This document shows, piece after piece, positions 20,143-31,903 of a stretch of 64,000 nt of DNA. How positions within the stretch are numbered: position 1 is the first letter of the stretch; each line of letters begins with the position of its first letter. The position numbers were made by a program, and so were the translations under genes. The DNA lies in assembly GCF_007570865.1 (NCBI RefSeq), contig NZ_VLPS01000008.1, forward strand, positions 248,001 through 312,000, in the 5' to 3' direction. The DNA is from Atlantibacter subterraneus (lineage in GTDB: Bacteria > Pseudomonadota > Gammaproteobacteria > Enterobacterales > Enterobacteriaceae). The notes beneath the pieces were generated by a model that had not been told where the DNA came from, did not search any database, and saw only the letters and a program-made list of their open reading frames with translations.

Positions 20143-20197
20143 TGCGTCATGGCGGTGCGCGGTATGAAGCCGCATTGCACCGCCATGACGCAGCGGT
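20143..20197 (+). other. Orphan 16-bp perfect hairpin, terminator-like
   Basis: TGCGTCATGGCGGTGC (20143-20158) pairs perfectly with 20177-20192; the 18-nt loop has its own GCGG/CCGC pairing. GCGG then TTTTT follow on the plus strand. It lies between divergent transcription units (yiaF leftward, guanidine operon rightward), where no upstream gene needs a terminator on this strand. Confidence 0.6.
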
Positions 20198-20344
20198 TTT
20201 TACGCCGTGATTAGCGAAAAACCGCGCAGCCTATTGTAACGCAACCTTTTTTTAACGATTTACCGAAACTGGCATTCATCTTGCTCTGATGACTATGCAG
20301 GGGGGACAGGCGGTACGCCGCCGTCGCCAGAAAATCTGGAAATG

Positions 20345-20456
20345 GATCGCTAGGGTTCCGGTCGCAAGACGCTGGTCCGAGAGCGATCGACCGCCCTCTG
20401 GCGGTTACACGGCGGGACAAAAGCCCGGGAGGATACGCGACTGGCTCGCGCCCTCC
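20345..20456 (+). promoter_or_regulatory. Guanidine-I (ykkC) riboswitch
   Basis: All the conserved blocks of the class are present: CTAGGGTTCCG (20350-20360), GGTCCGAGAG (20374-20383) and ACGGCGGGACAAAAGCCC (20409-20426), followed by GGGAGGA. P1 is GATCGC (20345-20350) with GCGATC (20383-20388); P3 is ACCGCC (20390-20395) with GGCGGT (20400-20405). A competing stem pairs GGAGG (20428-20432) with CCTCC (20452-20456), plus CGCG with CGCG, and would use up the aptamer 3' edge. No strong T-run follows, so whether control is by termination or another route is open. The class turns genes on when guanidine binds. Confidence 0.93.
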
Positions 20457-20487
20457 TGCTTATTCCGTCAACGTCAGAGGAACCATC

Positions 20488-21543
20488 ATGCTTAAAGCCT
20501 GCCATAAAGGAATTCTGCTCGCCGCGCTGGTCCTGTTTAGCGCCACCGCCGCGGCGGCGAAACCCGCCTTCAAACTCTGCTGGTCAATTTATGCCGGATG
20601 GATGCCCTGGGATTACGCCCAGCAGAGCGGCATCATCAAAAAATGGGCCGACAAATACGACATCGATATCCAGTTTGTGCAGGTTAACGACTATATCGAA
20701 TCCGTAAATCAGTACACCGCAGGCGGATTTGACGGCTGCACCATGACCAATATGGATGCGCTGACCCTGCCCGCCAGCGGCGGCGTGGACTCCACGGCGC
20801 TGATTATCGGCGACTACTCTAACGGCAACGACGGCATCCTGACCAAATCCGCCGACAGCGTCGCGGCGCTGAAAGGCCAGCCGGTGAATCTGGTGGAGCT
20901 TTCCGTTTCCCACTACCTGCTGGCACGGGCGCTGGAAACCGCGGGCCAGAGCGAGAAAGACATCAAGGTGGTCAACACGGCGGATGCGGATTTGGTATCG
21001 GCCTTTACTACGCCGGACGTCAAAACCATCGTCACCTGGAACCCACTGCTGGCTGAAGCGCAAAAGCAGCCCGGCGCAAAAACGCTTTTTACCTCGGCGC
21101 AAATCCCCGGCGAGATCCTCGACCTGCTGGTGGTGAATACCGCCACCCTGAAAAAACACCCTGAACTGGGCAAAGCGCTGACCGGCGCGTGGTTCGAAAC
21201 CCTGCAAACCATGCAGGGCGACAGCGAAACCGCCAAAGCGGCGCGTACCCGGATGGGGGAAGCGGCGGGCACGAACCTGGCGGGCTTTGACGCACAATTA
21301 GCCGCCACGCATCTGTTCACCACGCCACAGCTGGCGCTGGCCTTCACCAGCAGCCCGCAGTTGAAAACCACCATGCAGAAAGTCGCGGAGTTCTCTTTTA
21401 ACCACGGCTTGCTGGGCGAAGCCGCACCGTCTGCTGACGTAGTGGGCATTGAAACGCCCGCGGGCGTCTGGGGCGACAGCCAGAACGTCAAATTACGTTT
21501 TAGCGACGAGTTTGTCCGCCTGGCGGCCAACAACCAACTGTAA
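20488..21543 (+). CDS. ABC transporter substrate-binding protein, guanidine/urea type
   Basis: A 351-residue periplasmic protein with a signal peptide cut after about residue 24 (FSATAAAA). The mature part is a NitT/TauT-like binding fold (KLCWSIYAGWMPWDYAQQSG, FDGCTMTNMDAL). Such proteins are often annotated as putative urea ABC transporter binding proteins. Its place directly under a guanidine-I riboswitch suggests that it binds guanidine or a guanidinium compound. GAGGA precedes the ATG. It begins the six-gene operon. Confidence 0.85.
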   Translation: MLKACHKGILLAALVLFSATAAAAKPAFKLCWSIYAGWMPWDYAQQSGIIKKWADKYDIDIQFVQVNDYIESVNQYTAGGFDGCTMTNMDALTLPASGGVDSTALIIGDYSNGNDGILTKSADSVAALKGQPVNLVELSVSHYLLARALETAGQSEKDIKVVNTADADLVSAFTTPDVKTIVTWNPLLAEAQKQPGAKTLFTSAQIPGEILDLLVVNTATLKKHPELGKALTGAWFETLQTMQGDSETAKAARTRMGEAAGTNLAGFDAQLAATHLFTTPQLALAFTSSPQLKTTMQKVAEFSFNHGLLGEAAPSADVVGIETPAGVWGDSQNVKLRFSDEFVRLAANNQL

Positions 21544-21558
21544 TCACGGAGGCGTCCC

Positions 21559-22371
21559 ATGCGCAAAATCATCAACCTACAACCGCAGCCGATGAGCCGG
21601 GTGCTGCTGGGCGCCCTTCCGCTACTGGCGATGCTGTTTGTCTACCTGATCGCCTCCGACGCGCGGCTGGCGGCCAACAGCGCCGATAAACTGCTGCCTG
21701 GTTTTGATGCCATGTTCCGCGCCATCGACCGGATGGCGTTTACCCCCAGCCCGCGTACCGGGGAATACCTGTTGTGGACCGACACCGCCGCCAGCCTGCT
21801 GCGTCTGCTGAGCGGCGCGGTGCTCAGCGCGATTATCGCCCTGACTTTCGGCCTGTTTTGCGGCGCATTGCCTGCGGTGCGCGCCTTTTTGTCGCCGCTG
21901 ATCACCACCCTGGCGCTGATCCCGCCGCTGGCCATTCTGCCGATTTTGTTTATCTGCTTTGGCCTGGGGGAAGTGTCAAAAGTGGTGCTGATCGTGATTG
22001 GCATTACACCGTTTATCATCCGCGATTTGCAGCTGCAGGCGATGGCGATCCCCCATGAACAGCTGATCAAAGCCCAGACGCTGGGCGGGCACAGCGGGCA
22101 AATCCTGTGGCGGGTGTTTCTGCCGCAGCTGTTGCCGCGCCTGATTGACGCCGTGCGCCTGTCGCTGTGCTCGGCATGGTTGTTTTTGATTGCTGCGGAA
22201 GCCATCGCCGCCACTGAAGGGCTGGGCTACCGCATCTTCCTGATGCGCCGCTATATGGCAATGGACGTGATTTTGCCCTACGTCGCCTGGATCACCCTGC
22301 TCGCCTTTGCCCTCGATTTGCTGCTGCGAGTCGTGAACCGCCGTTGTTTCCCCTGGTACTACGCCCGCTGA
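21559..22371 (+). CDS. ABC transporter permease, guanidine/urea type
   Basis: A 270-residue inner-membrane permease of the NitT/TauT (BPD_transp_1) family with about six helices. The ATPase-coupling EAA-like loop is seen around IPHEQLIKAQTLGGHSGQIL (about residues 165-184). GGAGG precedes the ATG, 15 bp after the binding-protein stop. It forms the membrane channel with the ATPase that follows. Confidence 0.87.
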   Translation: MRKIINLQPQPMSRVLLGALPLLAMLFVYLIASDARLAANSADKLLPGFDAMFRAIDRMAFTPSPRTGEYLLWTDTAASLLRLLSGAVLSAIIALTFGLFCGALPAVRAFLSPLITTLALIPPLAILPILFICFGLGEVSKVVLIVIGITPFIIRDLQLQAMAIPHEQLIKAQTLGGHSGQILWRVFLPQLLPRLIDAVRLSLCSAWLFLIAAEAIAATEGLGYRIFLMRRYMAMDVILPYVAWITLLAFALDLLLRVVNRRCFPWYYAR

Positions 22372-22380
22372 GGAGCCGCT

Positions 22381-23181
22381 ATGCCTTTATTAGAACTGAA
22401 AAACGTCGGAAAAGAGTACGACAGCCAGGTGGTGCTGGAGCGGCTGAACGTCAGCGTTGAAGAGGGAGAATTTATCACCATTGTCGGCGCATCCGGCTGC
22501 GGTAAAACCACCTTTCTGAAAATGCTGCTCGGCACCGAATCGCCCTCTAAAGGGACTTTTTTGCTCGACGGCCAGCCGCTGGCCCAGGAGCCCGATGCCC
22601 AACGCGGCATTGTGTTCCAGCGCTACTCGGTATTCCCGCACCTGACGGTGATTGAAAATGTGATGCTGGCGGAAGAGTTCAGCCAGGCGCGATGGCTGGG
22701 CCGCGTCTGGGGGCGCAAGCGCGCCGCTATCCGCGAGCAGGCGCGGATGATGCTGAAACAGGTCGGCTTGCTGGGCGCGCAGGATAAATATCCGCATCAG
22801 CTTTCCGGCGGGATGCAGCAGCGCCTGGCGCTGGCACAGGCGTTAATGAAACAACCGCGTATTTTGCTGCTTGACGAACCGTTTGGCGCGCTGGACCCCG
22901 GCATTCGCGCGGAAATGCACGTACTCATTAGCTCGCTGTGGGAACGCCATAAGCTGACCATTTTTATGATTACCCACGATTTGAAAGAGGGGTTCTCGCT
23001 GGGCTCGCGGCTGTGGGTGTTCGACAAAGTGCGCCACGACCCGCAGGCACCGGAGGCGTACGGCGCGAGCATCACTTATGACATCCCATTAGACCGCAAA
23101 CCCGCTGGCAGCGTCACGCCGCTGTTCCCTCACGCGCCCTATCCCCTCGCCGAACAGCCCGCCGCGCTGTTTGGCCATTAA
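22381..23181 (+). CDS. ABC transporter ATP-binding protein, guanidine/urea type
   Basis: A 266-residue ATPase. Walker A is GASGCGKTTF (about residues 37-46), the Q-loop is in QRYSVFPHLT, the signature is LSGGMQQRLAL, Walker B is ILLLDEPFGALD, and the switch His is in MITHD. The C-terminal tail of about 50 residues after the ATPase core is typical of the set found beside urea carboxylases. GAGGAGC precedes the ATG, 9 bp after the permease stop. Confidence 0.88.
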   Translation: MPLLELKNVGKEYDSQVVLERLNVSVEEGEFITIVGASGCGKTTFLKMLLGTESPSKGTFLLDGQPLAQEPDAQRGIVFQRYSVFPHLTVIENVMLAEEFSQARWLGRVWGRKRAAIREQARMMLKQVGLLGAQDKYPHQLSGGMQQRLALAQALMKQPRILLLDEPFGALDPGIRAEMHVLISSLWERHKLTIFMITHDLKEGFSLGSRLWVFDKVRHDPQAPEAYGASITYDIPLDRKPAGSVTPLFPHAPYPLAEQPAALFGH

Positions 23182-23193
23182 CAAGGAGCCATG

Positions 23194-23910
23194 ATGAACG
23201 CTTATCAAACCCAATTACCGGCGGGCAGCCACTGGTCGCTGATGATGCGCCAGGGCACCGCCCTGACCCTGACCGACCTGGCGGGCGGGGTCAACGCAGG
23301 CGTGCTGTTTTACAACCCGGAAAACCTGCTGGAGCGCTATAACGCCCCCGATACCCTGAAGTGCCAGCACACCTTTCGGCTGACGGCGGGCCACTGCCTC
23401 TATTCCGATATGGGGCGGATTTTTTGCGGCATTGAACAGGACAGTTTCGGCTGGCATGAGTCGGTCTGCGGCACTGCCAATGCGGCGCTCACAGAAAAAC
23501 AGTTCGGCGCGCGCGATTACCAGCAGGCGCGTAACGATCGCCACCAGAACGGCTACGACAGCTTTCTGGTAGAGCTGGCGAAATACGGCCTCGGCAAACG
23601 CGATATGGCGGCCTGCCTGAACCTGTTCGCCCACGTCGCCGCTAACGATGATGGCAAACTGGAGCTGGTGCGCCAGGGCGCAGCGGGCGCGAGCGTCACC
23701 CTGCGTTTCGCGATGGATACGCTGGTCGTTTTACACACCTGTCCGCATCCGCTGAGCAACGCGACGGCGTACCCGCGCCAGCCGCTGGGCATCCGCATCG
23801 ACAGCGAACGTAAACCCCTTCCCGCTCACTGCCTTGAACGCGCCGAAAACCAGCGCGGTCTGTGCAACAACCATCTCTATCATCTCAGCGAAGGAGCCTG
23901 TTCATGCTGA
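23194..23910 (+). CDS. Urea carboxylase-associated protein 1 (carboxyguanidine deiminase subunit)
   Basis: A 238-residue protein of the DUF1989 family. It contains [15 protein letters not shown] and HTCPHPLSN, with metal-type Cys/His residues. Work on guanidine catabolism showed that the two associated proteins form a heteromeric carboxyguanidine deiminase (CgdAB), which turns carboxyguanidine into allophanate. ATG 23194 is chosen over 23191 because AAGGAG is then five bases away. The stop overlaps the next gene by 7 bp. Confidence 0.83.
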
Positions 23911-24539
23911 CCGAAAGCGCGCGCAATCCGGCGGATGCGGTCTATCACGCCACCGTTAAGGCCGGGGATTACTGGCTGTATAACATCACCGAAGGGCAAA
24001 CCCTGCGCATTACCGATCTGGAAGGCAACCAGGCGGCGGATACGCTGTTTTTCAATGCCGATGACACCGCAGAACGCTACAGCATGTCAGACACGGTACG
24101 CAGCCAGGGCAACGTCTTTCTGACCACCGGCACGGTGCTGCGCTCCAACGACGATCGCCCGATGCTGGAGATCGTCGCCGATACCTGTGGCCGCCATGAT
24201 ACCCTCGGCGGTGCCTGCGCCACCGAAAGCAACACCGTGCGCTATGACCTCGAAAAACGCCATATGCACGCCTGTCGCGACTCGTGGATGCTGGCAATTG
24301 CCGAACATCCGCAGTTCGGCCTGACGCGCCGCGATATCACTCACAACATCAATTTCTTTATGAACGTGCCGGTCACTCAGGACGGCGGGCTGTGCTTCGC
24401 CGATGGCATCTCTGCGCCGGGGAAATACGTCGAACTGGTCGCCAAAATGAACGTTCTGGTGCTGATCTCCAACTGTCCGCAGCTCAACAATCCCTGCAAC
24501 GGGTATAACCCGACCCCCATTGCCGTCACGGTGTGGTGA
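23904..24539 (+). CDS. Urea carboxylase-associated protein 2 (carboxyguanidine deiminase subunit)
   Basis: The 211-residue DUF1989 partner of the preceding protein. Family landmarks are [32 protein letters not shown] and the C-terminal [13 protein letters not shown] with a conserved Cys. The start at MLTESARNP follows AAGGAGCC and overlaps the upstream stop; 14 extra codons upstream are not family-like. Together the pair should release ammonia from carboxyguanidine in the cytoplasm. Confidence 0.83.
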
Positions 24540-24613
24540 TCCGGCGCTGCGGGACGACCCGCAACACAGCGCAATTAATGATGCAGGACGACCTGCCCGC
24601 CGGAGAGCCGGTT

Positions 24614-27600
24614 ATGTTAACTCGAATTCTTATCGCCAACCGTGGCGCAATTGCGGTGCGCATCATCCGCACCCTGAAGCAGATGGGCATCACCGCCATT
24701 GCCGTGTATGCCGAAGCAGATAAACACGCCGAGCACGTTCGCCAGGCGGATATCGCCGTATCGCTGGGTGAAGGCAACGTGCGCGAAACCTACCTCAATC
24801 AGGACAAACTGTTCACCATCATGCGTGAAAACGGCGCGCAGGCGGTACATCCGGGCTACGGATTTTTAAGTGAAAACGCCAGCTTTGTTGAGCGCTGCGA
24901 ACGCGAAGGCGTGGTGTTTCTCGGCCCGACAACCGCGCAAATGGCGGCTTTTGGCCTGAAACACCGCGCCCGCGAGCTGGCGGAGCAAAATCACGTGCCG
25001 CTGCTATCCGGCAGCGGCCTGTTGACTACCCCGGAAGCCGCGCAGCAAGCAGCGGAGAAAATCGGCTATCCGGTGATGCTGAAAAGCACGGCGGGCGGCG
25101 GCGGCATCGGGATGCAGCGCTGCGACGATGCGGCGGCGCTTGACGACGCCTTTACCCGCGTCAAACGTCTGGCAGGCAACAACTTCGCCGACGATGGCGT
25201 CTTTTTAGAGAAATTTATCGCCCGGGCGCGGCATATTGAAGTGCAGGTTTTCGGCGACGGCAATGGCAACGTTATCGCGCTGGGTGAACGCGACTGTTCG
25301 GCCCAGCGCCGCAATCAGAAAGTGATCGAAGAAACGCCTGCGCCGCGTCTCTCGGACGCTAACCGCCGGGCGCTGCACGACACCGCAATCCGCCTGTGCC
25401 AGGCAGTCAATTATCGCAGCGCCGGAACCGTGGAATACGTCTATGACGATGTGTCTGAACAGTTCTGGTTCCTGGAGGTAAACACCCGTCTGCAGGTAGA
25501 GCACGGCGTCACCGAGATGGTGTACGGCGTGGACATTGTCCGTTGGATGGTGGAACTGGGCGCGCAAACGTTGCCTGCGCTGGATACGTTGGTGACTGCG
25601 CCAACAGGCCACGCCATTCAGGTGCGGCTGTATGCGGAAGATCCGGCGAAAAACTTCCAGCCAGTGGCCGGGTTGCTCAGCGAAGTGGTTTTTCCGGAAA
25701 GCGTGGAGGCGGCGCAACTGCGCATCGACAGCTGGATTTCCGGCGGTTGCGAGGTATCGGCCTTTTACGATCCGATGCTGGCAAAAGTCATTGTCCATGC
25801 CGACAGCCGTCTACAGGCGTTAGCGGCGCTGCAAGACGCCCTCGCGCAAACCCGGCTTTACGGCATCGAAACTAACCTGAAATGGCTGCGTCATTTGCTG
25901 ACGCTGCCGCAGGTGCGCGAAGGCAAGGTCATTACTGCCACTTTAGGCGATGTGAGCTGGCAGCCCGCCACCCTGGACGTGCTGAGCGGCGGCACGATGA
26001 CTACGATTCAGGATTTACCGGGGCGCGTGGGTTACTGGGACGTTGGCGTACCGCCCTCCGGTCCGTTCGATAGTCTGGCGTTTGAGTTGGGGAACCAGCT
26101 GCTGCAAAACCCGCGCGATGCCGCCGGGCTGGAAATCACGCTGCGCGGCCCGACGCTGCGCGTTAATCAGGCATGTTCCATCGTGCTGACCGGCGCGGAT
26201 ATCGATGCCACATTAGATGATGCACCAGTCGCGATGCGCCGGGTGATAAACGTGCTGGCAGGCCAGACCCTCAAACTTGGCGCGGTACAGGGCGCGGGCT
26301 GCCGCAGTTATCTGCTGATTGCCGGTGGCCTGAATTGCCCGCATTACCTGGGCAGCCGCAGTACCTTTACGCTGGGAAAATTCGGCGGCCATGCCGGACG
26401 GGCGCTGCGTGCCGGGGATGTTATTCACCTCGCCGCGCCGGAAATCCGCCCTGACGCTACGCTGCCCGCCGATGCTTATCCGGTTATCTCCAGCCACTGG
26501 CAGCTGCGGGTGATTTACGGTCCGCACGGCGCGCCGGAATTCTTTACCGGGCAGGATATCGAAGAATTTTTCGCGGCCCGCTGGCAGGTGCATTACAACT
26601 CCAGCCGCACCGGCATCCGTCTGATAGGGCCCAAACCCAGCTGGGCACGCCCGGACGGCGGCGAGGCGGGAATGCATCCGTCCAATATTCACGATAACGC
26701 CTATGCCTTTGGCACGGTGGATTTTACCGGCGACATGCCGGTGATCCTCGGGCCGGACGGCCCGTCGCTGGGCGGATTCGTCTGCCCGGCCACGGTTATC
26801 CATCAGGATTTATGGAAGCTCGGCCAGTTGAAAGCCGGCGATACGATCTCCTTTGCGCCGGTCACGCTGGAAGAGGCCGACAGCACCCAACAAACCGCCA
26901 GCGCGTCTGCTGACGTTGCGCTCAACGCGCTGCCGTCGCCGATTTTATGGCAGGACGACGCCCGTGACGGTATGCCTGCGATTGCCGTTCGGGCGGCGGG
27001 CGACCGCTTTCTGCTGGTGGAATATGGCGAGCAGCGGCTGGACATCGCCCTGCGCTTTCGCGTCCACGCGCTGATGCAGCAGTTGGAAGCAATAACGATC
27101 GCCGGGCGGCTGGAGATGACGCCGGGGATCCGTTCCTTGCAGATCCATTTCGATCCGGCGCGCTGCCCGCGCGATGCGCTGATCGCCATTATCCGCGAGG
27201 CCGATCTCCAGTTGCGGGATTTGCGTGACGCCAGAGTGCCGTCGCGCACCGTCTGGCTGCCGCTCAGCTGGGATGATGCCGCCTGCCGCGAGGCGATTAC
27301 CCGTTACACCCAGTCGGTACGCCCCGGCGCACCGTGGTGCCCGAGCAATATCGAATTTATCCGTCGCATCAACGGACTGGATAGTGTGGAGCAGGTTAAA
27401 GAGATTGTCTTTAACGCCTCGTATCTGGTGATGGGCCTGGGGGATGTCTATCTCGGCGCGCCGGTCGCCACGCCGGTCGATCCGCGTCACCGTCTGGTGA
27501 CCACGAAATACAATCCGGCACGCACCTGGACGGCGGAAAACTCGGTGGGCATCGGCGGCGCTTATTTGTGCGTCTACGGTATGGAAGGGCCTGGCGGCTA

Positions 27601-28186
27601 TCAGTTCGTGGGCCGTACCGTACAGATGTGGAATCGCGATCGCAAAACGGAAGCCTTTACCCAGCCGTGGCTGCTGCGCTTTTTTGACCAGATCCGCTTC
27701 TATCAGGTCAGCCATGAGGAGTTATTAACGCTGCGCGAGCGTTTCCCGTGGGGCGACCATCCCCTGCGTATCGAACACGGCGAGTTCAGCCTGAGCGACT
27801 GGCAACAGAGGCTGGAGCAGGACGCAACGGATATCGCCGCCTTCCAGGATAAACGTCAGAAAGCCTTTGATGAGGAGCTGGCACGCTGGCGCGCCGACGG
27901 TCAGTTCACCTTCGAAAGTGAATCCGACGCGCAAAACGACAGCGACGACACTATTCCCGACAGCTGCTGCGGCGTTGAAAGCCTGGTGGCAGGCAGCGTC
28001 TGGCAGTGGCTGGTGAAGCCGGGAGAACAGGTTGCGGAAGGCCAACTGATCGGAATTCTCGAATCCATGAAAATGGAGATCCCAATTACCGCGCCGGTTA
28101 GCGGAACCATCCGCACTTTCCAGCGCCAGCAGGGAAATCAGGTACAGGCAGGGCAGTTATTGATGGTGATTGAACGCGCTGCGTAA
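24614..28186 (+). CDS. Guanidine (urea) carboxylase, biotin-dependent
   Basis: A 1190-residue multidomain enzyme. The order is biotin carboxylase (about residues 1-450, ATP-grasp motif STAGGGGIGMQ), carboxyltransferase made of KipA-like (about 460-770) and KipI-like (about 820-1030) parts, and a C-terminal biotinyl domain with ESMKMEI, biotin on Lys1153. It carboxylates guanidine or urea with ATP and bicarbonate. The riboswitch upstream argues for guanidine, since enzymes under ykkC-I were shown to prefer it. Asp703 in GTVDFTGD may be the residue that marks guanidine enzymes. GGAGAG precedes the ATG. No allophanate hydrolase follows. Confidence 0.9.
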   Translation: MLTRILIANRGAIAVRIIRTLKQMGITAIAVYAEADKHAEHVRQADIAVSLGEGNVRETYLNQDKLFTIMRENGAQAVHPGYGFLSENASFVERCEREGVVFLGPTTAQMAAFGLKHRARELAEQNHVPLLSGSGLLTTPEAAQQAAEKIGYPVMLKSTAGGGGIGMQRCDDAAALDDAFTRVKRLAGNNFADDGVFLEKFIARARHIEVQVFGDGNGNVIALGERDCSAQRRNQKVIEETPAPRLSDANRRALHDTAIRLCQAVNYRSAGTVEYVYDDVSEQFWFLEVNTRLQVEHGVTEMVYGVDIVRWMVELGAQTLPALDTLVTAPTGHAIQVRLYAEDPAKNFQPVAGLLSEVVFPESVEAAQLRIDSWISGGCEVSAFYDPMLAKVIVHADSRLQALAALQDALAQTRLYGIETNLKWLRHLLTLPQVREGKVITATLGDVSWQPATLDVLSGGTMTTIQDLPGRVGYWDVGVPPSGPFDSLAFELGNQLLQNPRDAAGLEITLRGPTLRVNQACSIVLTGADIDATLDDAPVAMRRVINVLAGQTLKLGAVQGAGCRSYLLIAGGLNCPHYLGSRSTFTLGKFGGHAGRALRAGDVIHLAAPEIRPDATLPADAYPVISSHWQLRVIYGPHGAPEFFTGQDIEEFFAARWQVHYNSSRTGIRLIGPKPSWARPDGGEAGMHPSNIHDNAYAFGTVDFTGDMPVILGPDGPSLGGFVCPATVIHQDLWKLGQLKAGDTISFAPVTLEEADSTQQTASASADVALNALPSPILWQDDARDGMPAIAVRAAGDRFLLVEYGEQRLDIALRFRVHALMQQLEAITIAGRLEMTPGIRSLQIHFDPARCPRDALIAIIREADLQLRDLRDARVPSRTVWLPLSWDDAACREAITRYTQSVRPGAPWCPSNIEFIRRINGLDSVEQVKEIVFNASYLVMGLGDVYLGAPVATPVDPRHRLVTTKYNPARTWTAENSVGIGGAYLCVYGMEGPGGYQFVGRTVQMWNRDRKTEAFTQPWLLRFFDQIRFYQVSHEELLTLRERFPWGDHPLRIEHGEFSLSDWQQRLEQDATDIAAFQDKRQKAFDEELARWRADGQFTFESESDAQNDSDDTIPDSCCGVESLVAGSVWQWLVKPGEQVAEGQLIGILESMKMEIPITAPVSGTIRTFQRQQGNQVQAGQLLMVIERAA

Positions 28187-28459: not shown

Positions 28460-28750
28460 ATGGAATATAAAGATCCAATGGTTGAGTTGCTCAGCAGCCT
28501 TGAGCAGATTGTTTTTAAAGATGATTCACAGAAAGTGACCCTGACCCATAAACCGTCCGCTTTTTCCGAGTTTGAGCAGCTGCGAAAGAGTACCGGTTTG
28601 AAAGTTGATGACCTGGCCCGGGTGATGGGCGTGAGTGTTGCCATGGTGCATGAATGGGAATCAAAACGCGTAAAACCCTCCAGCACCGAACTGAAGCTGA
28701 TGCGCCTGATTCAGGCGAACCCGATGCTCAGTAAGCAGTTGATGGAATAA
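28460..28750 (+). CDS. yiaG: XRE-family HTH protein YiaG
   Basis: A 96-residue protein, the same length as E. coli YiaG. The C-terminal helix-turn-helix is KVDDLARVMGVSVAMVHEWE (about residues 50-69), followed by KPSSTELKLMRLI, which resembles HigA/MqsA-type antitoxin domains. No toxin gene is adjacent, so it appears to be a solo regulator. GAGGAG lies seven bases before the ATG; the seven upstream in-frame codons include that site and are not coding. A strong terminator follows. Confidence 0.93.
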   Translation: MEYKDPMVELLSSLEQIVFKDDSQKVTLTHKPSAFSEFEQLRKSTGLKVDDLARVMGVSVAMVHEWESKRVKPSSTELKLMRLIQANPMLSKQLME

Positions 28751-29833: not shown

Positions 29834-31903
29834 TTACTGCAGCAGAGAAATATCCGCTACCTGCAGGAACAATTCGCGCAGCTTTGACAGCAGCGTCAGG
29901 CGGTTAACGCGCAACTCCTGATCGTCTGCCATTACCATCACTTTATCGAAGAAAGCATCGACCGGCGCGCGCAGGGCTGCCAGTTCCACCAGCGCCTGCT
30001 GGTATTCGCCTTTAGCAAAGGCTGGCTCCAGTTTGTCGCGCAGAATAACCAACTGGCGCGCCAGTTCGATTTCTTCCGGCTCTTTCAATACCGAGGCGCG
30101 AACATGGTCGTGCAGCGTTTCGGTGGATTTCGCCAGAATATTTGATACGCGCTTGTTGGCCGCTGCCAGCGCAGAAGCCGCCTCCAGGGAACGGAAATGC
30201 GATACCGCCTTCATACGGGCATCGAAATCCGCCGGTTTGGTCGGACGACGCGCCAGCACCGCCTGGATGGTATCCACGCTGTGGCCTTCTTCCTGATACC
30301 AGGCGCGGAAACGGCCCAGCATAAAGTCGATAACGTCATCAACCACGTTGGCGTTGGTCAGCTTACTGCCATACAAACGCACCGCTTCTTCTGTCAGGGT
30401 TTGCAGATCGAGCGGCAGGTTTTTCTCAACGATGATACGCAGCACGCCGAGCGCAGCGCGACGCAGCGCAAACGGGTCTTTATCGCCTTTCGGATGCTGG
30501 CCGATGCCAAAAATACCCGCCAGGGTATCCATCTTGTCGGCAATCGCCACCGCACAGGCCACCGGGTTAGACGGCAGATCGTCGCCCGCGAAACGCGGCT
30601 GATACTGCTCGTTCAGCGCCACGGCAACGTCTTCCGCTTCGCCATCGTGACGGGCATAGTGCATCCCCATCACGCCCTGGGTGTCGGTAAACTCGAACAC
30701 CATGTTGGTCATCAGGTCGCATTTAGACAGCAGGCCCGCACGCGTCGCATGATTTACATCCGCACCGGTCTGCCCGGCAATCCATCCGGCAAGCGCCTGA
30801 ATGCGATCGGTTTTATCGCGCAGGGTGCCCAGTTGCTGCTGGAACAACACGGTTTCCAGACGCGGCAGATGGTCTTCAAGGCGTTTTTTGCGGTCGGTAT
30901 TAAAGAAGAACTCCGCATCCGCCAGACGCGGGCGCACCACTTTTTCGTTACCGGAGATAATCTGCTGCGGATCTTTGGATTCGATGTTCGCCACAAAGAT
31001 AAAGTTAGGCAGCAGCTTCCCGTTATTGTCATAGACCGGGAAGTATTTCTGGTCGCCTTTCATGGTGTAAACCAGCGCTTCAGCCGGTACCGCCAGGAAC
31101 TTCTCTTCGAATTTGGCAGTCAGCACTACCGGCCATTCCACCAGCGAGGTGACTTCTTCCAGCAGGCTTTCGCTCAGATCGGCATTGCCGCCAATTTTGC
31201 GCGCGGCGTCTTCAGCGTCGGCTTTGATTTTGGCTTTGCGCTGCTCGTAGTCGGCGATGACTTTACCGCGCTCCAGCAGGATGTCCGGATACTGATCGGC
31301 ACGTTCAATGGTAAATTCCGGCTCGCCCATAAAGCGATGGCCGCGGATCACGCGATCGGACTGAATGCCAAGAATATTAGCCGGGATAAGTTTGTCATCC
31401 AGCAGTAACGTAACGGTATGCACCGGACGCACGAAGTGAACGTCAGACGCGCCCCAACGCATCAATTTCGGAATCGGCAGTTTCGCCAGCGACACGCCGA
31501 TCATGCCGGGCAGCAGCGCTTCAACGCTTTCGCCTTTCACATGGGCGCGATAGAGCAGCCATTCGCCTTTATCGGTGGTTAAACGCTCGGCCTGATCGAC
31601 GGTAATACCGCAGCCGCGCGCCCAGCCTTCCGCCGCTTTGCTCGGTTTGCCTTCGGCATCAAAGGCCTGGGCGATTGCCGGGCCGCGTTTTTCTACTTCA
31701 CGATCCGGCTGAGATTCCGCCAGATTGGCGATTTTCAGCGCCAGACGACGCGGCGCAGCAAACCATTTAACGTCGCCATGGGCGATATTGGCCGCATCGA
31801 GTTCAGCAGTAACATTCGCAGCGAAGGATTCCGCCAGGCTGCGCAGGGCTTTTGGTGGCAGCTCTTCAGTGCCGATCTCCACCAGAAAAGTTTTTTCAGA
31901 CAT
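29834..31903 (-). CDS. glyS: Glycyl-tRNA synthetase beta subunit
   Basis: The 689-residue beta chain of the alpha2beta2 bacterial glycyl-tRNA synthetase, which charges tRNA-Gly in the cytoplasm. It opens with [20 protein letters not shown], the family hallmark. The HD-like region ([30 protein letters not shown]) and the C-terminal anticodon-binding region (about residues 580-680) are complete. It follows glyQ by 9 bp in one operon. Long open frames on the other strand are codon-bias shadows. Confidence 0.98.

Follow-up and report, generated by a model that had tools for sequence, protein, structure and literature searches.

The stretch analysed here, hereafter the window, comprises 64 kb of Atlantibacter subterraneus (GCF_007570865.1, NZ_VLPS01000008.1; C14:248001-312000), taken from a genome of 4.6 Mb in 18 contigs, rated 100% complete (G000), and contains a predicted operon for the use of guanidine nitrogen. 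The operon displays (i) a Guanidine-I riboswitch as its leader, (ii) the genes of an ATP-binding cassette (ABC) importer, (iii) cgdA and cgdB, for the subunits of carboxyguanidine deiminase, and (iv) a carboxylase gene preceded by a Guanidine-II riboswitch, both riboswitches scoring above the gathering score (Table 1). The operon holds no allophanate hydrolase gene (atzF), and the sole full AtzF of the genome is encoded on another contig.

A preliminary description of the locus had called the riboswitch, the importer, the CgdA/CgdB pair and the carboxylase complete and intact, which agrees with the complete open reading frames (ORFs) and with profile scores over the cut-offs for the binding protein, CgdA, CgdB and the carboxylase; the Guanidine-II riboswitch and the sigma54-type promoter were absent from it. 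CgdA and CgdB are paralogous DUF1989 subunits, UAAP1 and UAAP2, each over its NCBIfam cut-off, with the cgdB start placed at the ATG that yields 211 aa. The most likely start codon of the carboxylase is ATG 24614, not GTG 24533, a correction to the earlier account. It had also reported atzF as missing with yiaG next in line, and 273 bp indeed separate the carboxylase stop from the yiaG ATG with no atzF between. Neither is there an AtzF elsewhere in the window: when it was searched by tblastn with 44 AtzF proteins, none of the 244 matches at E <= 10 was better than E = 0.14.

Table 1. Features of the guanidine operon in the window, and the dyad core upstream of the remote atzF
Feature	Position	Strand	Evidence or remark
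Inverted repeat, two weak NtrC-like matches (GCGT-N7-GTGC and mirror)	20144-20191	.	Read from sequence
Sigma54-type (-24/-12) promoter, TGGCAY-N5-TTGCW	20270-20285	+	Pattern match, ahead of the guanidine operon
Guanidine-I riboswitch (RF00442)	20339-20433	+	83.7 bits, gathering score 63
Periplasmic binding protein of the importer (TIGR03427 family)	20488-21543	+	527.6 bits, cut-off 333.9
ABC importer permease	21559-22371	+	PF00528, 66 bits
ABC importer ATPase	22381-23181	+	PF00005, 122.2 bits
cgdA, carboxyguanidine deiminase subunit (UAAP1, DUF1989)	23191-23910	+	TIGR03425, 277.1 bits, cut-off 205.95
cgdB, carboxyguanidine deiminase subunit (UAAP2, DUF1989)	23904-24539	+	TIGR03424, 329.5 bits, cut-off 284.7
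Guanidine-II riboswitch (mini-ykkC), two ACGA-loop hairpins	24546-24596	+	39 bits, gathering score 32; before the carboxylase gene
Guanidine carboxylase, 1190 aa	24614-28186	+	TIGR02712, 1773.8 bits, cut-off 1304
yiaG, unrelated regulator	28460-28750	+	NF007481, 178 bits; end of cluster
15-base dyad core, own genome	L007:11930-11944	-	Upstream of the urea-type atzF

The remote gene, at G000:C15:23121-24788, encodes a protein with both the Amidase (PF01425) and AH_C (PF21986) domains that scores 809.5 bits against TIGR02713 (cut-off 511.05). The search of the whole genome for AtzF-type amidases that the preliminary description had called for (TIGR02713 and PF01425) returns this gene as the only AtzF over the cut-off and, at the same time, as the only Amidase-family protein. 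The alternative that the gene lies elsewhere was thus correct, whereas the pathway gap proposed on the strength of the operon does not hold at genome level, since the AtzF of the second operon would supply the last step; recourse to another amidase or to spontaneous decay is not supported, and no other Amidase-family protein was found in the genome. The C15 operon has the order atzF, urea carboxylase, gntR, urtA, urtB, urtC, urtD, urtE, in which AtzF, the carboxylase and each of UrtA-E exceed an NCBIfam cut-off and GntR exceeds none. The 20 kb around the C15 atzF (stretch L007) contain no Rfam riboswitch over its gathering score and no match to cgdA or cgdB better than E = 0.2.

The assignment of the two carboxylases relies on the residue corresponding to position 1330 of the K. 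lactis enzyme, which is used to distinguish guanidine from urea carboxylases in the part of PMC11410670 that was available. Asp703 of the window carboxylase aligns with K. lactis Asn1330 (PDB code 5i8i; TIGR02712 position 701), as expected of a guanidine carboxylase, and the C15 carboxylase places Asn706 in the same column; because of this asparagine at the discriminating position, the C15 operon is most likely a urea operon. Across the family, the column holds Asp in 44/44 cluster carboxylases and Asn in 30/30 carboxylases of urea operons, and among the invariant columns separating these two sets it is the only one with a D/N exchange. In addition, the GLGD motif of the window enzyme aligns to the GLGD of K. 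lactis, placing an Asp at position 1584, also expected of a guanidine carboxylase, a position counted by hand from the printed 3va7 and 5i8i alignments, the latter ending one residue short.

The distribution of both operons was studied in a census of 295 genomes of the same family (genomes are coded G, stretches L). CgdA matches at E <= 0.001 occur in 60 genomes, of which the 44 over the curated cut-off are counted as clusters; the 16 below it were left out, including G028 (which carries CgdA and AtzF fragments and is rated 49% complete) and G290 (a CgdA fragment). AtzF exceeds its cut-off in 90 of the 295 genomes with one match each, among candidates scored up to a maximum of 4 per genome in one search and 12 in another, and it is present in 44/44 genomes with a cluster vs 46/251 of the others (Fisher 2e-27, uncorrected for kinship). 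It lies directly behind the cluster carboxylase in 9 of the 44 and elsewhere in 35, beside a urea carboxylase in 30 of these and without one in 5. A local AtzF and a urea carboxylase are found together in 0/44 genomes. Two cluster types occur. In the type unlike the window's (20 genomes), 8 have a local AtzF without urea carboxylase and 12 the reverse. In the window's type (24 genomes), the urea operon is present in 18 and a urea-type AtzF stands alone in 5; in the last, G141, which has no urea carboxylase, a urea-type AtzF immediately follows the guanidine carboxylase. In quick tree searches without bootstrap, the remote AtzF falls in the urea-operon clade and the 8 cluster-borne AtzF of the other cluster type form a separate clade, 46-48% identical to the remote AtzF; on the carboxylase tree the local-AtzF state takes five changes, and in 5/5 independent contrasts the urea carboxylase is in the opposite state to the local AtzF (sign test p = 0.0625, five pairs being too few to reach 0.05). 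Searches with the 8 cluster-type AtzF proteins found no atzF relics (E <= 1e-3) in the 35 cluster stretches that have no local copy. A urea carboxylase match adjoins atzF in all 46 AtzF genomes that lack a cgdA over the cut-off, as a comparison of the coordinates one by one established; in G162 it is broken.

Five genomes (G087, G057, G097, G184 and G208) combine a guanidine cluster and a urea-type AtzF with no urea carboxylase, the usual gntR neighbour being kept in 4. G087, with the order atzF, gntR, urtA, urtB, urtC and on, is a clean case of the urea carboxylase being absent while AtzF persists; G057, G097 and G184 have the same gntR after atzF and no urtA in the stretch, and G208 has neither gntR (E <= 1e-15) nor urtA beside atzF. 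Such orphan AtzF genes occur in 5 of the 35 genomes with a cluster and a remote AtzF and in 0 of the 46 without a cluster (p 0.013, weakening to p 0.08 if G162 with its broken urea carboxylase is counted as an orphan). Separately, in G057, G184, G097 and G208 (L107, L106, L109 and L111) atzF lies near allantoin-type genes (permease, racemase-like and, by eye, PuuE-like), and the -12 box of its sigma54 promoter is altered with the dyad described below still recognisable; the guanidine operons of these genomes are also without a sigma54 match.

Outside the sample, the best 80 of at least 593 named cgdA loci were taken, chosen by cgdA and hence skewed toward the window's cluster type; 71 could be judged, 39 with a local AtzF and 32 without, the latter including all 21 enterobacterial loci among these best 80 (L113-L133). 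From the 32 loci, 23 further genomes were searched, L127 being left out together with L113, L114, L117, L120, L121, L130, L132 and L133, which are apparently already in the sample. A full AtzF is encoded elsewhere in 22 of the 23, and the metagenome-assembled genome G313 has a C-terminal AtzF fragment only. The neighbourhood of atzF was read at 20 of these loci. A urea carboxylase-like gene adjoins it in 11, gntR adjoins it with no carboxylase in 5, and neither occurs within 1.5 kb in the remaining 4 (one with a distant GntR-like match). By CgdA, the closest named relatives among the same best 80 are Atlantibacter sp. RC6 (98%) and, second, a strain labelled Citrobacter freundii M-21 (92%).

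The two operons of A. subterraneus also resemble each other in their promoters. A strict sigma54 pattern matches once in the 64-kb window, just before Guanidine-I, with 0.30 matches expected, and once in the 20 kb around the C15 atzF, just before atzF. For the window match, position and conservation weigh more than number: the strict site lies upstream of the importer gene in 28/44 genomes and upstream of the remote atzF in 27/35, where chance predicts 0.006 per 300 nt. NtrC-like sites carrying no more than one mismatch were counted only in regions with a sigma54 match, against shuffles that preserved base composition only, and occur upstream of atzF in 46/69 regions (2.4 expected) and in 24/34 guanidine regions (1.55 expected). 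The promoter pattern is thus present in both operons, and the NtrC-like sites are enriched in the relatives and unconvincing in the A. subterraneus genome alone. These patterns may point to an NtrC control of both operons, which would probably be switched on by nitrogen limitation.

Taken as a whole, the locus is very probably a guanidine-nitrogen operon whose final step is performed in trans by the AtzF of the urea operon. Guanidine would enter through the ABC importer and be converted by the carboxylase into carboxyguanidine, from which CgdAB would produce allophanate; the urea-operon AtzF, normally acting after urea carboxylase, would then split allophanate into ammonia and CO2. The two guanidine riboswitches, present in the sequence and with a function assigned by homology, would gate the guanidine operon; AtzF has no riboswitch, and it has a sigma54-type promoter with an operator-like dyad over the predicted start, probably a GntR site. 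With a sigma54-type promoter in both operons, AtzF would probably be present when nitrogen is short, which is the time guanidine is eaten. The reciprocal pattern of presence further suggests that a cluster-borne AtzF is redundant where the urea operon is present and has been lost there repeatedly. That the two pathways share their last enzyme, with a reciprocal presence across the family, is well supported, and an apparent gap in a nitrogen pathway is closed. The rule in the genomes examined is that where the guanidine operon has no atzF, an AtzF is encoded at another locus, in most cases in the urea operon. Annotation one operon at a time would wrongly judge such genomes unable to complete guanidine breakdown, and the reciprocal presence and absence amounts to a natural experiment in enzyme sharing. 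The literature searched (guanidine together with urea amidolyase, NtrC or sharing; most subscription papers fell outside its scope) contained no title on a guanidine operon sharing the urea AtzF.

Several observations weigh against a shared AtzF under common nitrogen control. The protein activities and the expression of AtzF during growth on guanidine are predicted from sequence; the Fisher value ignores kinship, the contrast test is limited by its five pairs, and AtzF might accompany guanidine use in part because such bacteria use ureides in general. Regarding the orphans, the atzF of G184 has a C-terminal frameshift, the status of G162 decides how strong the contrast is, and the four orphans of Dickeya/Prodigiosinella type group in a single AtzF clade separate from G282, so that for these four a loss of urea carboxylase, as opposed to never having had one, is not established; the fragment in G313 departs from the rule as well. 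On the regulatory side, a single sigma54 match can arise by chance, at least one appearing in 23/100 shuffles of the window and 12/200 of the atzF region, and the strict site is missing upstream of the importer in 16/44 genomes and of the remote atzF in 8/35. In the genome of the window, atzF has one NtrC-like site with one mismatch, and 4 such sites occur in the 20 kb, for which 3.3 are expected; at the guanidine operon, the best NtrC-like sites carry two mismatches and are weak alone.

Three other explanations account for parts of the data. The missing atzF, together with a lone AH_C-domain protein encoded about 26 kb upstream of the cluster, would fit a true gap, in which allophanate would decay spontaneously or be handled by another amidase, or in which the cluster would serve detoxification alone; this we consider highly improbable, as the genome encodes a full AtzF and no other Amidase-family protein, AtzF is kept in every cluster genome, and the AH_C protein has no amidase domain and sits beside AllG- and carbamate kinase-type genes. 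Still less probable is a split cluster, in which rearrangement carried the cluster's original atzF to its remote site. The preliminary description had held that an allophanate hydrolase gene found elsewhere under the same control would make this a simple split, an idea to which the absence of a cluster-type AtzF from 24/24 clusters of the window's type lends something. The gene does lie elsewhere, but the same control and the simple split are both contradicted by the different AtzF clade, the complete urea operon and the lack of a guanidine riboswitch within 20 kb, and the same pair of atzF and urea carboxylase recurs in the 46 genomes without a cgdA over the cut-off; the control common to both operons appears to be sigma54.

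The least probable explanation is that the second carboxylase operon itself degrades guanidine, giving a genome with two guanidine pathways, as might be supposed from the available portion of PMC12186494, according to which many bacterial "urea carboxylase" genes encode guanidine carboxylases. The Asn at the specificity position of the second carboxylase, the presence of UrtA-E over their cut-offs, and the lack in L007 of both a riboswitch and cgdA/cgdB all speak for urea. Sharing of the urea-operon AtzF remains the preferred reading, and the C15 locus resembles the urea amidolyase system (urea carboxylase, allophanate hydrolase and urt transporter), which has allophanate as common intermediate and would supply AtzF; it differs from the guanidine operon in the carboxylase Asn and in having neither CgdAB nor a guanidine riboswitch.

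The upstream region of the urea-type atzF displays a conserved 32-bp dyad, with the consensus TGAATTCCATCTTGTATACCAGATGGAATTCA, downstream of the -12 box and ahead of the atzF start codon. The dyad is present in 74 of the 81 remote atzF upstream regions, and its distance to the -24 box is 30 or 31 nt in all 74 (spacing filter 28-33 for the 35 genomes with clusters and 10-50 for the 46 others); among the filter failures, G019, G065, G165, G188, G250 and G293 hold the exact 15-mer and G037 is without it. An exact 15-base core occurs in 35/295 genomes, 34 times just upstream of atzF; the remaining genome, G003, has the core but lacks an AtzF over the cut-off. Reversed, as a control, the pattern is found in 0/295. 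In the window, the only match, at 31061-31075, carries three mismatches and is within chance; it was discarded. Counting from the -12 box places the predicted transcription start of atzF within the left arm. An RNA hairpin, to which the complementary look of the arms would point, was considered and rejected in view of this start site, of a right inner arm that varies without compensation (pair 6 is only 45% Watson-Crick) and of the constant spacing to the promoter; a DNA operator fits the dyad better.

A gntR gene lies within 300 nt of atzF or of the urea carboxylase gene in 33/35 remote AtzF loci, and the GntR of the C15 operon has an FCD domain. The dyad is a candidate operator, probably for the GntR of the respective operon. 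Regulators of the FCD type often bind small carboxylic acids. It is conceivable, although we hold it only tentatively, that the FCD-type GntR accompanying the urea-type atzF senses allophanate, binds the dyad over the predicted sigma54 start and releases it on allophanate, both the binding and the ligand being predictions. The main hint to this proposal is that atzF-gntR and a recognisable dyad persist in guanidine-cluster genomes without urea carboxylase. If true, the common intermediate of the two pathways would induce the shared last enzyme, either pathway could induce AtzF, and guanidine operons could drop their own atzF while keeping coordination; dyad and gntR together are a directly testable candidate for an allophanate-sensing regulator.

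The double riboswitch is an arrangement already known. In the available part of PMC12186494, Guanidine-I precedes the importer and deaminase genes and Guanidine-II the carboxylase and allophanate hydrolase genes in Raoultella, Klebsiella and Erwinia, and the available part of PMC12508155 gives both classes in the Vreelandella operon. As far as these sources go, the operons of Raoultella terrigena, Klebsiella michiganensis, Erwinia rhapontici (PMC12186494) and Vreelandella boliviensis (PMC12508155) likewise comprise Guanidine-I first, then importer, cgdA, cgdB and Guanidine-II before the carboxylase, and all four include an allophanate hydrolase gene, unlike the Atlantibacter operon. The guanidine pathway of P. 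syringae DC3000, mentioned in the part of PMC11410670 available, likewise combines the carboxylase pathway with ABC uptake. In the predicted fold of the Guanidine-II element of the window, UCCGGCG pairs with CGCCGGA at the Shine-Dalgarno sequence.

Guanidine-I exceeds the cut-off in 44/44 cgdA-bearing genomes. A Guanidine-II match (E <= 0.001) lies at the cluster in 40/44, 31 of them over the curated cut-off, and is missing in G141, G165, G219 and G250; a loose scan of the same gap for two ACGR hairpins, run with no chance control, is also positive in 40/44, missing G096, G103, G114 and G141. G141 (L050), the sole genome negative by both, is also the one cluster with a urea-type AtzF behind the guanidine carboxylase. 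The genome-wide search for a second guanidine riboswitch suggested in the preliminary description, covering classes I and II only, shows that in A. subterraneus class I is confined to the cluster and that class II is found there and on C12 alone. Directly behind this second Guanidine-II (G000:C12:135614-135658; L009:5614-5658) lies an ORF for a small membrane protein (L009:5664-5993, about 109 aa), which by eye resembles a guanidine exporter of the SugE/Gdx type.

The AH_C-only protein (131 aa, 140.8 bits), which corresponds to the C-terminal domain of allophanate hydrolase alone, is encoded at G000:C14:242148-242543 (L008:6148-6543). On one side it is flanked by a carbamate kinase gene and on the other by a 532-aa ORF that resembles a permease and matches no Pfam or NCBIfam profile; AllG, AllH and an FdrA-like gene with a CoA-ligase domain lie in the vicinity. 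As a substitute for AtzF it was rejected for want of an amidase domain; it may act on an N-carboxy product. Finally, a doubled hok/sok locus lies between yiaG and glyS, comprising two sok antitoxin RNAs (RF01794; 29048-29200 and 29532-29684, - strand) and two Hok-like ORFs of 52 aa on the - strand.

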